From an uncultured Pelagibacteraceae bacterium (GTDB taxonomy: Bacteria; Pseudomonadota; Alphaproteobacteria; Pelagibacterales; Pelagibacteraceae), in NCBI GenBank assembly GCA_902541285.1, contig CACBQD010000003.1, forward strand, positions 1 to 64,000: a stretch of 64,000 nt of DNA, given 5' to 3'. Position 1 is the first letter of the stretch, and the number at the start of each line of letters is the position of its first letter. Both the position numbers and the translations under genes were made by a program. A model generated the notes under the pieces. The model was given only the letters and a program-made list of their open reading frames with translations, did no database searches and had not been told where the DNA came from. Positions 35,414 to 55,342 of this stretch are shown here, in pieces.

Positions 35414-35833
35414 ATGTTAGAAACTATTGAAGAAAAATGCCAAAAAAATGGTGTAAAACTTACAGATCAAAGAAGGATAATCGCAAGAGTAATATCCGAA
35501 TCTAAAAAAACATATGGAGAATCTGACCATCCAGATGTTGATGAATTATATAATAGAGTTTCTCAAATAGATTCTAAAATTAGTATCGCTACTGTTTACA
35601 GGACAGTTAAGCTTTTTGAGGAAGCGGGTATATTAACAAAACATGATTTTAAATCTGGAAAGGCGAGATATGAATTAAATGATGATCATAATCATTTGAT
35701 TGATATAAAAACTGGAGAGATAATAGAATTTGTTGATGAAGAAATCGAAGAATTACAAAAAAAAATTGCTGATAAATACGGTTATAAGCTTGTTGATCAT
35801 AAATTAGAACTATACGGTATCAAAAAAAAATAA
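35414..35833 (+). CDS. fur: Fur-family metal-responsive regulator (Fur/Mur type)
   Basis: A 139-residue winged-helix repressor. The DNA-binding domain includes LTDQRRIIARVI and KISIATVYRTVKLFEEAGI (recognition helix, about 56-74); the dimerisation domain has RYELNDDHNHLIDIKTGEIIEFVDEEIEELQ. The two structural-zinc CxxC motifs are absent and the canonical Cys after HHDH is Asp here, as in alphaproteobacterial Fur/Mur proteins, some of which sense manganese. It lies 8 bp after tsaB and 3 bp before miaB. Confidence 0.9.
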   Translation: MLETIEEKCQKNGVKLTDQRRIIARVISESKKTYGESDHPDVDELYNRVSQIDSKISIATVYRTVKLFEEAGILTKHDFKSGKARYELNDDHNHLIDIKTGEIIEFVDEEIEELQKKIADKYGYKLVDHKLELYGIKKK

Positions 35834-51400: not shown

Positions 51401-51406
51401 TTGCTA

Positions 51407-51817
51407 ATGACTAGTAAACAAGAATTTATTGAAAAACTAAGAAACTCCAGCTTAAGACCAACTAAGCAAAGAATAAATATATGTGAGGTTTTGTTTAATA
51501 GAGATAAAACTTTCCATTTCACAATAAACGACTTATTCAATTTGATAAAAGATAAAACTGGAGAGAAAGTTTCTTTAGCAACTGTTTACAATACAGTCCA
51601 TGCATTCCTTAAAAAAGGATATCTAAAAGAGATACCAATTAATTCTAATCAAACTTATTTTGATACAAATGTCACAGATCACCACCATTTCTTTGATGTT
51701 AAAGAAGAAAAGCTTATTGACATTAAAAATGAGGATGTAGGACCAATAGAAATTCAGAAATCCATTCCTGGAAAAAAAATTAAATCAGTCGAAGTTTTAG
51801 TAAAATTAGAGGACTAG
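51407..51817 (+). CDS. irr: Irr-type iron response regulator (Fur family)
   Basis: A 136-residue Fur-superfamily regulator; ATG at 51407 chosen over a TTG 6 bp upstream. The winged helix contains LRPTKQRINICEVLF and SLATVYNTVHAFLKKGYL; the dimerisation domain has the histidine-rich VTDHHHFFDVKEEKLIDI, the Irr-type heme/metal site. There are no CxxC motifs. In Rhizobiales irr also sits beside fabA-fabB-fabI, which supports the name over a generic Fur or PerR. In those bacteria Irr acts under low iron and is controlled by heme. ICE-like repeats precede both this gene and katG. Confidence 0.85.
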   Translation: MTSKQEFIEKLRNSSLRPTKQRINICEVLFNRDKTFHFTINDLFNLIKDKTGEKVSLATVYNTVHAFLKKGYLKEIPINSNQTYFDTNVTDHHHFFDVKEEKLIDIKNEDVGPIEIQKSIPGKKIKSVEVLVKLED

Positions 51818-51923: not shown

Positions 51924-54161
51924 ATGAGTGCGGAATTTCATAAAAGTAAAACATTTAAATCAGCAGAATTAAGTAAGTGCCCTTTTTCGGGCGCAGGTAC
52001 ACCAGCAAAATTTAGCGCTGGAAGAGGACAAACAAATAGAGATTTTTGGCCAAATAGTTTGAATTTGAAAATTTTAAGTCAGCACTCGAATTTATCAAAT
52101 CCAATGGAGAAAAAATTTAATTATTCTAAAGAATTTAAAAAACTGAACTACAAAGCACTCAAAAAAGATTTAAACAAATTAATGACAGACTCACAAGATT
52201 GGTGGCCAGCAGATTACGGTCATTATGGTCCTTTATTTATTAGATTAGCATGGCATGCAGCAGGTACATACAGAACAGGTGATGGTAGAGGGGGAGCTGG
52301 AACAGGTAATCAAAGGTTTGCACCGTTAAATGCTTGGCCTGATAATGTTAATTTAGATAAAGCAAGATTACTTTTGTGGCCAATAAAACAGAAATATGGA
52401 AAAAGAATTTCTTGGGCAGATTTATTTATACTAGTTGGAAATGTAGCATTAGAGTCAATGGGCTTTAAAACGTTCGGTTTTGGAGCCGGAAGAACTGATA
52501 TCTGGGAACCAGAAGATGATATTTACTGGGGTTCAGAAAAAGAAATGTTGGGTGTTAAGAGATACAGCGGAAAAAGAGATCTTGAACAACCATTGGGGGC
52601 TTCTCACATGGGATTAATTTATGTAAATCCACAAGGTCCAGATTTTAATCCAGATCCATTAAAAGCGGCTCATGATATCAGAGAAACATTTGGACGAATG
52701 GCAATGAATGACTATGAAACTGTTGCTTTAGTTGCAGGGGGTCACACCTTTGGAAAATCTCATGGTGCTGCACCAGAATCACATAAAGGACCTGATCCAG
52801 AGGCATCAAGAATCCAAGATCAAGCAACTGGTTGGAATAGTAATTACAAATCAGGAAAAGGTGTACACGCAATAAGTAGTGGTATTGAAGGAGCATGGAC
52901 ACAAACACCAACAAAATGGGATATGGGTTACTTTGATTGTTTATTTAACCATGAATGGGAATTGACAAAAGGACCTGCTGGAGCATTTCAATGGACTCCA
53001 AAAAAGAATGGTCAGAGAATTAAAATGGTTCCTGATGCTCATGATAAAAGTAAAATGCATCCTCCAATGATGCAAACAACTGATTTATCTTTGAGAATGG
53101 ATAAAAGTTATGGACCAATTTCAAAACATTTTTATCAAAATCCAGATGAATTTGCTGATGCATTTGCTAGAGCTTGGTTTAAACTTACTCATAGAGACAT
53201 GGGACCAAGAGCATGTTATTTGGGTAGCGAAGTACCAAAAGAACAATTAATTTGGCAAGATCCTATAGATAAACCAAAATATAAACTTAAATCAAAAGAT
53301 ATAAGAGATTTGAAATTAAAGCTTTCAAAATCAAAAATCTCCGTGTCAGATTTAGTTTCTACAGCCTGGGCATCTGCTTCCACATACAGAGGTTCTGATA
53401 AAAGAGGTGGAGCAAACGGAGCAAGAATTATGCTTGAACCTCAAAGAAGTTGGAAAGTTAATAACCCTAAAAAACTATCAAAGGTTATTAAAGCTCTACA
53501 AAAAATTAAGAAAAGATTTGATACAAATAAAAAATCAGTCTCAATGGCGGATCTTATAGTATTAGGTGGAAATGTAGGAGTTGAAATGGCAGCCAGAAAG
53601 GCTGGTCACAAAATTCAAGTCCCATTTAACCCTGGAAGAGGAGATGCTAGACAAGACCAGACAGATGTAAATTCATTTGGATTGCTTGAGCCACAAGCGG
53701 ATGGTTTTAGAAACTACATTAAAAAAGGTAAATCTCATGTTTCAGCTGAGGAAAAATTAATTGATAAGGCACAATTAATGGGATTAACGGCGCCAGAGAT
53801 GACAGTTCTTGTAGGAGGAATGAGAGTTTTAAATACAAACTATGATAGTTCTAAAAATGGAGTTTTCACAAAAAAACCTGGAACTTTATCAACAGATTAT
53901 TTTGTAAATCTTCTTGATATGAGTACCACTTGGAAAGAAACAGATAAATCTGAACAATATTTTGTTGGTAAAGATAGAAAGTCTAAAAAAACTAAGTGGA
54001 AAGGTTCAAGAGTTGACCTTATTTTTGGCTCTAATTCTCAATTAAGAGCATTAGCTGAAGTTTATGCTTGTAAAGATTCATCAGACAAATTTGTTAATGA
54101 CTTTGTATCTGCATGGGTCAAAGTTATGAATGCAGATAGATTTGATTTAAGATTAAACTAG
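51924..54161 (+). CDS. katG: Catalase-peroxidase KatG
   Basis: Heme enzyme that removes hydrogen peroxide. The 745 residues form the usual tandem class I peroxidase. In the active N-terminal half the distal Arg-Trp-His is in [19 protein letters not shown], the Tyr of the Met-Tyr-Trp adduct in [14 protein letters not shown], the Met in [12 protein letters not shown] and the proximal His in [12 protein letters not shown]. The C-terminal half is the inactive repeat. A good AAAGGAG precedes the ATG. Composition is a little less A/T-biased than neighbours, consistent with high expression or transfer. The promoter carries an Irr-type repeat. Confidence 0.97.
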
Positions 54162-54180: not shown

Positions 54181-54777
54181 ATGACATCACTATCGTTCGA
54201 AGACTTTTACAAAGTTCCTGAAATTAAGTTTGATATAAATAGATTGCGAAAAGATTTAAATATAATTTTGGAGAAAAAGAAATTTAATTCGCCAGGTGTT
54301 ACCCACTTTGGTGCAATTCCTTTAAATCAAATTCCAAATAACAAAGATTCTATAGAAGGGAACTATATCAGGGGTAGATATTGGACTATTGCAGATGAGA
54401 CAGGCAAGGAAGTCTCAAGAGATATTGATATTGATGAGTCAAAATATACTGAGTTGCTACCAGAGTTTGAGAAAACTTATTTTAAAGAGGTTTATGAAAT
54501 TCTTAGTAAAAAATTTAAGCTAGGAAGGGTAAGGCTTTTATTGAAAGAGCCAAGATCAACACTAAGCTGGCATAAAGATCCAGAATGTAGATTGCATATT
54601 CCGATAGTAACTAATGCAGGTTGTTCAATGGTCATTGAAAATGTTGCAAAACATTTGCCTGCAGATGGACATGTATGGATTACTAATAATACAAAGTATC
54701 ATAACTTTTTTAATGGAGGAGAACAGGCTAGAGTTCACTTAGTTGCTTGTGTTCTTGAAAGCCCGTTTAAAGAATAA
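54181..54777 (+). CDS. Aspartyl/asparaginyl beta-hydroxylase-like dioxygenase
   Basis: A 198-residue cupin-fold protein resembling the Fe(II)/2-oxoglutarate-dependent Asp/Asn hydroxylase family. The likely iron ligands are in RSTLSWHKDPECRLHIPI (His-x-Asp) and NTKYHNFFNGGEQARVHLV (second His, then the 2-oxoglutarate Arg). It lies 19 bp after katG and directly before a DUF2061 gene (1-bp overlap), so the three are probably co-transcribed. The substrate, a protein side chain or a free amino-acid derivative, is unknown. Dependence on iron fits control by Irr. Confidence 0.78.
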   Translation: MTSLSFEDFYKVPEIKFDINRLRKDLNIILEKKKFNSPGVTHFGAIPLNQIPNNKDSIEGNYIRGRYWTIADETGKEVSRDIDIDESKYTELLPEFEKTYFKEVYEILSKKFKLGRVRLLLKEPRSTLSWHKDPECRLHIPIVTNAGCSMVIENVAKHLPADGHVWITNNTKYHNFFNGGEQARVHLVACVLESPFKE

Positions 54778-55019
54778 TGGAAGTTACTAACGGCATTTTT
54801 AAAGCTGCTGGTCAGATTTATTCCAATAACAGAGGCTCTATTTTAAGAACAATTGTTTATACAGTTGGTCATTTTGCAATTGCTATAACTGTTTTGATGT
54901 TAGTAGCGGATGTATCATTTATGATAGCCTTGACTGATGCAATTGTAGAACCAATTGCCAATTCTATTTGGTATTTCATTTTAGATAAGTGGTGGGCAAG
55001 TAGATCAAAAAGTAAATAA
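54777..55019 (+). CDS. DUF2061 membrane protein
   Basis: An 80-residue protein resembling DUF2061: SILRTIVYTVGHFAIAITVLMLVADVSFMIALTDAIVEPIANSIWYFILDKWW gives two hydrophobic segments separated by an acidic turn. The family occurs in many marine bacteria; function unknown. Its ATG overlaps the stop of the upstream hydroxylase. A Fur-like operator overlaps its own stop codon, so transcription of the next gene may start in its 3' end. Confidence 0.7.
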   Translation: MEVTNGIFKAAGQIYSNNRGSILRTIVYTVGHFAIAITVLMLVADVSFMIALTDAIVEPIANSIWYFILDKWWASRSKSK

Positions 55020-55031
55020 TAATCATTATCA
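55017..55031. promoter_or_regulatory. Fur-type 7-1-7 operator
   Basis: TAATAATCATTATCA matches the 7-1-7 Fur unit TGATAAT-N-ATTATCA at 13 of 14 arm positions. It overlaps the DUF2061 stop codon and precedes the Cys-rich small gene by 131 bp. Alphaproteobacterial Fur/Mur and Irr can prefer other motifs, so the binding protein is uncertain. Confidence 0.5.
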
Positions 55032-55071
55032 ATAAATAAATAGAAAAAATTTTATAAGGATAATTTGTAGT

Positions 55072-55119
55072 AATAATAATTATTCGCAAAAAAAATGCGT
55101 AAATAATAATTATTCGCAA
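55072..55119. repeat. Two 18-bp direct repeats 30 bp apart
   Basis: AATAATAATTATTCGCAA occurs identically at 55072-55089 and 55102-55119. The first half of each, AATAATTATT, is itself palindromic and resembles a degenerate Fur arm pair (11 and 10 of 14). Between the copies, CGCA and TGCG form an inverted pair around an A-run (55085-55099). The 30-bp step is close to three helical turns, as in operators that bind a regulator cooperatively on one face. Confidence 0.8.
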
Positions 55120-55162
55120 GGATATTTGTTGAAAATAATTTTTTCATATTTATTTTTTAAAT

Positions 55163-55342
55163 ATGCAAATAGAAAATTATAACTGTAAAAAATGTGGATT
55201 AACAATTTCTTCAACTTGTTCTAAGTGTGATAAAATAGTTGATGTTGAAGTTCTTGATGATGGATGTATTGTTCAAAAAACTAAATGTGTTGATTGTGCA
55301 AATGCTCCAGTGATCAAAGACGTATGTGTCCAACAAAAATAA
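55163..55342 (+). CDS. Cysteine-rich 59-residue protein, zinc-ribbon-like
   Basis: A small frame from ATG 55163 to TAA 55342. It has eight cysteines: NCKKCGL (residues 8, 11), TCSKCDK (19, 22), DGC (35), KCVDCAN (42, 45) and VC (55), i.e. three CxxC pairs and two single Cys. This suggests zinc or iron-sulfur binding, or a small metallothionein-like or zinc-ribbon protein; no known family is recognised. Codon use is like that of neighbouring genes and the Cys spacing could not survive by chance in noncoding A/T-rich DNA. Upstream lie a Fur-like operator and paired repeats, so metal-dependent expression is likely. Confidence 0.7.
   Translation: MQIENYNCKKCGLTISSTCSKCDKIVDVEVLDDGCIVQKTKCVDCANAPVIKDVCVQQK

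Follow-up and report, generated by a model that had tools for sequence, protein, structure and literature searches.

An eight-cysteine microprotein of SAR11 bacteria, very probably under iron-regulon control and a candidate zinc ribbon

SAR11 bacteria live at picomolar iron with few regulators, and their response to iron shortage is thought to consist mainly of raising one transporter and Fe-S assembly. In Candidatus Pelagibacter ubique, which is described as having no ferritin, sfuC rose 16-fold and the suf operon about twofold upon iron limitation (PMC2864753). A comparative study of SAR11 genomes reported that their 7-1-7 Fur boxes are invariably located in front of Fe(III) ABC transporter components and FTR1 permeases, with none apparent in HTCC7211 (PMC4771312), and an earlier search found no classic Fur box in HTCC1062 (PMC3090418). 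Elsewhere, DUF2061 of Caulobacter was 13-fold up in low iron and 6-fold up in a fur mutant, and Bfd was raised by both iron limitation and fur loss (PMC3751524); DUF2061 of Shewanella carries a high-confidence Fur motif (PMC12442407). Among stand-alone zinc-finger microproteins, HVO_2753 of Haloferax binds one zinc although two had been predicted (PMC11241148).

Here, we examine a 59-residue open reading frame, named S1, at 55163-55342 (+) of the window, i.e., the whole stretch of 64,000 nucleotides that was analysed (Table 1). Its named relatives place the window in a Pelagibacteraceae (SAR11) genome. The searched open-access literature yielded no paper tied to S1, and the protein is unnamed in the available portions of the Fur-regulon and SAR11 iron papers.

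Table 1 Features of the S1 locus and candidate regulators in the window.
Feature	Position	Strand	Remark
Fur-family regulator closest to Fur	35414..35833	+	main candidate binder of the boxes
Irr-like Fur-family regulator	51401..51817	+	candidate binder of the boxes
katG	51924..54161	+	S1 neighbour only in this clade
Asp/Arg beta-hydroxylase-like protein (PF05118)	54181..54777	+	Pfam match
DUF2061 small membrane protein	54777..55019	+	recurrent S1 neighbour
Fur-type box, distal	55014..55031	+	window's best match to TGATAATGATTATCA, 1 mismatch, minus strand
Fur-type box, tandem copy 1	55071..55085	+	3 mismatches; reads GAATAATTATTATTA on the minus strand
Fur-type box, tandem copy 2	55101..55115	+	30 bp from copy 1; 3 mismatches
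-35 element TTGAAA	55129..55134	+	at -34 from the S1 ATG
-10-like element TATTTT	55151..55156	+	transcription predicted to begin at the ATG or beside it (leaderless)
S1 gene for a probable two-site zinc ribbon of 59 aa with eight cysteines	55163..55342	+	ORF, relatives, alignment, dN/dS

S1 is a conserved gene with a fixed cysteine pattern

The S1 protein (MQIENYNCKKCGLTISSTCSKCDKIVDVEVLDDGCIVQKTKCVDCANAPVIKDVCVQQK) has cysteines at positions 8, 11, 19, 22, 35, 42, 45, and 55, so that the three CxxC pairs (8/11, 19/22, and 42/45) and two single cysteines of the original prediction are exact. Cysteine is rare in this DNA, as had also been noted: the window ORFs of at least 200 aa contain 137 cysteines among their 16360 residues (0.84%), a rate at which at least eight cysteines in 59 residues have a binomial probability of about 4 × 10−8. 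A relative is encoded in 52 of the 200 relatives' genomes, five of the 52 carrying the sister family, S2, and in 220 of 286 candidate stretches on genome contigs (80 of the 220 were retained). A joint S1/S2 profile matched 107 of 247 Pelagibacterales genomes and 9 of 385 genomes of the class. With this profile, neither family was found in the genome that we take to be Ca. P. ubique HTCC1062, the strain of the published iron arrays; as HTCC1062 appears to lack S1, a response of this gene would have been out of reach of these arrays.

The prediction had hinged on relatives retaining both the reading frame and the cysteines. Both are kept in all 83 distinct S1 proteins (drawn from 154 fetched loci), with identical spacing throughout: C-x2-C-x7-C-x2-C-x12-C-x6-C-x2-C-x9-C. 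An alignment of 13 diverse members has 18 invariant columns, comprising the eight cysteines and ten non-cysteine positions. Compared with two relatives (L003 and L031), S1 shows six to eight synonymous changes and no non-synonymous ones; dS and dN are 0.98 and 0.029 against L010, 1.11 and 0.043 against another close to middle relative, and 1.03 and 0.213 against L123, the furthest of the 15 relatives in this comparison. S1 is under purifying selection. Its small size and the lack of an annotation family might suggest a chance or non-coding ORF, an explanation that is ruled out by the fixed cysteine pattern in 83 of 83 proteins together with dN far below dS in close relatives, and to which we attach a vanishingly small probability; judged from these comparisons, it is near certain that S1 is a real gene. 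A phage origin was also considered and rejected, as no relatives were present in the viral contigs or the phage collection.

Fur-type boxes precede S1 and iron genes

By sequence, S1 has its own promoter, whose -35 element keeps a nearly constant distance to the start codon: each of the 118 distinct Pelagibacterales upstream regions has a TTG at -36 to -33. The -10-like element usually finishes some 7 nt ahead of the ATG, and a Shine-Dalgarno-like site is present in one of the 118. This placement of the -35 and -10 elements close to the ATG predicts transcription from at or next to the start codon, and the S1 mRNA is likely leaderless.

Upstream of these elements, S1 is preceded in every Pelagibacterales setting by boxes of the Fur type (GATAATGATTATC or variants of it), mostly a pair. 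A 7-1-7 Fur box with at most two mismatches lies within 150 nt upstream in 101 of the 118 S1 regions, whereas other genes at the same loci have one in 4 of their 136 upstream regions and shuffles in 35 of 2400; these counts are descriptive and overstate significance because the consensus was picked after viewing the S1 upstream regions and the related sequences are not independent. The best box has three mismatches in a further 16 of the 118 regions and four in one. Within the window, the distal box is the better match and both proximal ones are degenerate (Table 1); relatives have a box at about the same place as tandem copy 1. In seven of ten hand-picked S1 genomes, the site upstream of S1 is the sole exact GATAATGATTATCATT in the genome. 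The S1 genes examined outside Pelagibacterales (L137 and L141), which come from a different family of Alphaproteobacteria, have no box. The original prediction's placement of the gene behind metal-type operators is right and turns out to matter most. Being upstream of the -35 element, the boxes are compatible both with activation when iron is low and with repression when it is high.

The same box occurs at known iron genes. Among 17 other box sites inspected in the hand-picked S1 genomes, seven are upstream of a ferric-iron (periplasmic) binding protein, four are between hemB and a relative of the Asp/Arg-hydroxylase (PF05118), and two adjoin an Rrf2/IscR-type gene; the remaining four (L218, L229, L240, and L256) are away from iron uptake, haem, and Fe-S assembly genes. 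One member of each iron-gene kind was identified by search, and the one binding protein of the seven that was searched has iron-binding proteins as its PDB relatives and a generic solute-binding family as its Pfam match. No zinc or peroxide genes were seen at these 17 sites. The window's own genome has a ferric-iron binding protein gene with boxes of the same type, but near box matches in this genome number 120 versus 67 in a backward control, an excess of only about twofold. The box is common to S1 and to known iron genes of the same genome. On this sequence evidence, S1 is very probably under iron-regulon control, which is what the present analysis would add to the original prediction: control by an iron-type box appears general across SAR11 settings, unlike the link to katG.

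Several further features were observed around these boxes. In L241, L242, L250, and L251, PF05118 relatives are divergent from hemB at a Fur-type box, and because of these relatives the hydroxylase beside katG in the window may itself be an iron-regulon enzyme. In genome G380, a one-mismatch box (L218, 1501-1516) precedes nuoA, of respiratory complex I. Directly behind the ferric-iron binding protein gene and ahead of an apparent permease gene, we noticed an unnamed-looking protein of 56-57 aa with about three to four cysteines and a common NKSS motif (L247 250-420 (-), L248 1763-1933, L249 231-401 (-), L231 2618-2791, L254 2599-2772, and L255 2600-2770), which may belong to the sfu operon. 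The genome has three Fur-family proteins, two of which are listed in Table 1; the third (L190, 1474-1881) is Zur-like, with an NCBIfam score of 72 bits that is below the cut-off, and is directly behind ABC transporter genes.

Fold, sister family, and genomic setting

The protein had been described as being of unknown family, and indeed no profile of Pfam or NCBIfam matches S1 above its cut-off; nor did PHROGs yield a usable match. The Pfam double zinc ribbon (PF12773) aligns with residues 5-29 at 19.3 bits (E = 0.0013), below its gathering cut-off of 27.3. HVO_2753 (DUF1610, PDB 6ydh) is the best PDB profile match of the joint S1 and S2 alignment (E = 0.016; E = 0.71 with S1 alone), the best stretch being 24 residues long, short of whole-domain similarity. 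Like S1, it is a small stand-alone protein; unlike S1, it is archaeal and has four CxxC motifs in place of three and two single cysteines. Since HVO_2753 binds one of its two predicted zinc ions, zinc in both S1 sites is not to be assumed. The N-terminal zinc ribbon of Nop10 (PDB 2apo and 2aqc) shares with S1 a CxxCGL-...-CxxC hairpin at near-equal spacing (E = 0.12), although it has one site only. In archaea and eukaryotes, Nop10 is a component of a ribosome/pseudouridylation complex. An AlphaFold2 model of S1 built on 15 close sequences reached a pLDDT of 62 and a pTM of 0.38, and Foldseek returned nothing significant for it (best E-value 1.5), with Nop10 structures at ranks 1 and 2. The fold check proposed originally thus speaks for a zinc ribbon through weak profile matches to short ribbons and fails to do so through structure prediction. 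Of the roles suggested at the outset (metal store, zinc ribbon adaptor, or redox buffer), the zinc ribbon is best supported, by these weak profiles and by a Cys/His exchange in S2, and its use as an adaptor is a conjecture of ours. Overall, we consider it reasonably likely from sequence that S1 is a zinc ribbon.

S2 is a diverged sister of about 63 aa (motif TYxCxxCxM...GKIKSPxCCGxDM) that occurs in Pelagibacterales, in some further members of the Alphaproteobacteria, and, elsewhere in the phylum, in two genomes from other classes; homology with S1 extends over residues 3-48 (hhalign probability 97.5%). The first half, CxxC-x7-CxxC, is shared by all 27 distinct S2 members. In the second half, where S1 has C35, C42-x2-C45, and C55, S2 lacks C35 and has CPxC or CPxxH followed by GKIKSPxCCGxDM. 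A Cys/His exchange is tolerated there, which favours zinc over an iron site and, together with the other differences between the second halves, fits two four-ligand sites, one common and one rebuilt. The upstream regions differ as well: 21 of 27 S2 regions have a Shine-Dalgarno-like site, as against the single S1 case, and two of the 27 have a box with at most two mismatches.

Across the 247 Pelagibacterales genomes, 85 have S1, 21 have S2, and none has both, where an overlap of 7.2 would be expected (Fisher P = 9 × 10−5, phylogeny ignored; one weak match, G082, E = 0.0098, was scored as neither). In some genomes, S1 (L123-L127) and S2 (L128) are flanked by the same gene clusters, which we take to be dapB and dnaJ, suggesting that the two replace each other. 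Outside the order, G510 contains both. The notion that S1 is an iron-free substitute for S2 within one cell was rejected for SAR11, given the absence of genomes with both among the 247.

In the clade of the window, the gene order is irr-like, katG, hydroxylase, DUF2061, and S1, followed by opposite genes (SH3 and thiF). The original placement of S1 behind a katG-hydroxylase group is accurate for this clade and does not extend to other lineages, which place S1 differently: we counted about seven other settings in Pelagibacterales and one outside, with neighbours that by our recognition of their sequences are presumably DUF3833/SDR, YjbQ/photolyase, dapB/dnaJ, MsrB, and others. General membership in a katG operon was therefore rejected, and, because the location differs entirely elsewhere, katG is not the partner of S1. 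DUF2061, which published data place in the Fur regulon of other bacteria, recurs more widely: it adjoins S1 on the upstream side in the window clade and on the downstream side in two further arrangements, those of L118/L187 and of L184, and it lies near S2 in L176/L177 and L158. It is present in 159 of the 247 Pelagibacterales genomes, many of them without S1, and G002 has S1 with no DUF2061 match, so that a functional pair of S1 and DUF2061 is only partly supported. At L112-L118, L184, and L187, S1 adjoins genes resembling a photo-oxidative stress set, presumably photolyase, SDR, and DUF3833.

Possible roles and comparison with known systems

We tentatively read S1 as an iron-starvation-responsive cytoplasmic zinc-ribbon microprotein, probably an adaptor; taken as a whole, this reading falls somewhat short of even odds, its parts being graded separately above. 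S1 would probably be part of how SAR11 copes with iron shortage. A Fur-family regulator, either the Fur-like or the Irr-like protein of Table 1, likely switches S1 on when iron is short. It is moderately likely that the eight cysteines hold two structural zinc ions, with C8/C11/C19/C22 as a Nop10-like first site and C35/C42/C45/C55 as the second. As an adaptor, the folded ribbon might then bind a target, either protein or RNA, and tune it to low iron, a step suggested by analogy and the most speculative of the scheme. Other small Fur-controlled proteins act in iron sparing. A more specific version, which we regard as rather unlikely, would make S1 the protein effector of an iron-sparing switch that binds mRNA, a ribosome, or an enzyme and cuts iron use, doing the job of small RNAs in larger genomes, with S1 and the mostly box-free S2 as alternative versions that do not co-occur in SAR11; it draws on the predicted leaderless transcript and on an operator that, in several SAR11 genomes, matches the Fur type better than any other site.

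The density of eight cysteines in 59 residues, the box type common to S1 and iron uptake, and the absence of ferritin from the available description of Ca. P. ubique (PMC2864753) would also suit a metal buffer or chaperone, holding zinc, ferrous iron, or copper and keeping the metals that the derepressed transporter lets in from mis-metallating enzymes in ferritin-free cells. We find this unlikely, though a shade less so than the switch just described, as 18 invariant columns, ten of them non-cysteine, and a cysteine content of 14% (8/59) suggest a definite fold and not a metallothionein, and no metallothionein family in Pfam or NCBIfam matched S1. Metallothioneins consist of cysteine to about one third of their residues. 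The two possible Cys4 sets could instead be rubredoxin-type Fe(Cys)4 sites of a redox or electron carrier that supplies electrons for iron mobilisation, like bacterioferritin-associated ferredoxin, and the rise of Bfd upon iron limitation and fur loss in Caulobacter (PMC3751524) would be a precedent. The CCGxDM ending of S2 resembles desulforedoxin, if weakly, and rubredoxin and rubrerythrin appear in the insignificant Foldseek list. Yet S1 matched no rubredoxin or RCKP rubredoxin-like family in Pfam (E ≤ 1) or NCBIfam, and no 2Fe-2S domain profile of bacterioferritin-associated ferredoxin or other ferredoxin family in these two collections; the RCKP profile matched one S2 protein alone, at 15.3 bits versus a cut-off of 45. 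Moreover, the S2 Cys/His exchange favours zinc, and an iron protein would be costly to make when iron is short, which leaves a redox carrier improbable in our view.

A different kind of objection concerns the signal itself. With three Fur-family proteins in the genome, one of them Zur-like beside ABC transporter genes, and with katG adjoining S1 in this clade, the signal read by the boxes could be a different metal or peroxide, under control of the Zur, Mur, or PerR-like kind, and S1 could be a zinc or manganese response protein. The presence of the same box at the ferric-iron transporter, hemB, and the iscR-type gene, and the lack of any zinc or peroxide gene at the 17 sites looked at, make this very unlikely, less probable than either of the preceding alternatives.

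If S1 is indeed an iron-responsive zinc-ribbon microprotein, the SAR11 iron response would gain a further component, a conserved small protein of no assigned class that is preceded by an iron-type operator of its own, and ocean metatranscriptomes would gain a candidate marker gene for iron stress. The nearest known counterparts of its boxes are the Caulobacter Fur regulon and the sfu-suf response of SAR11, which they resemble in the genes that they accompany, namely those of iron uptake, haem, and Fe-S, with DUF2061 and hydroxylase members.
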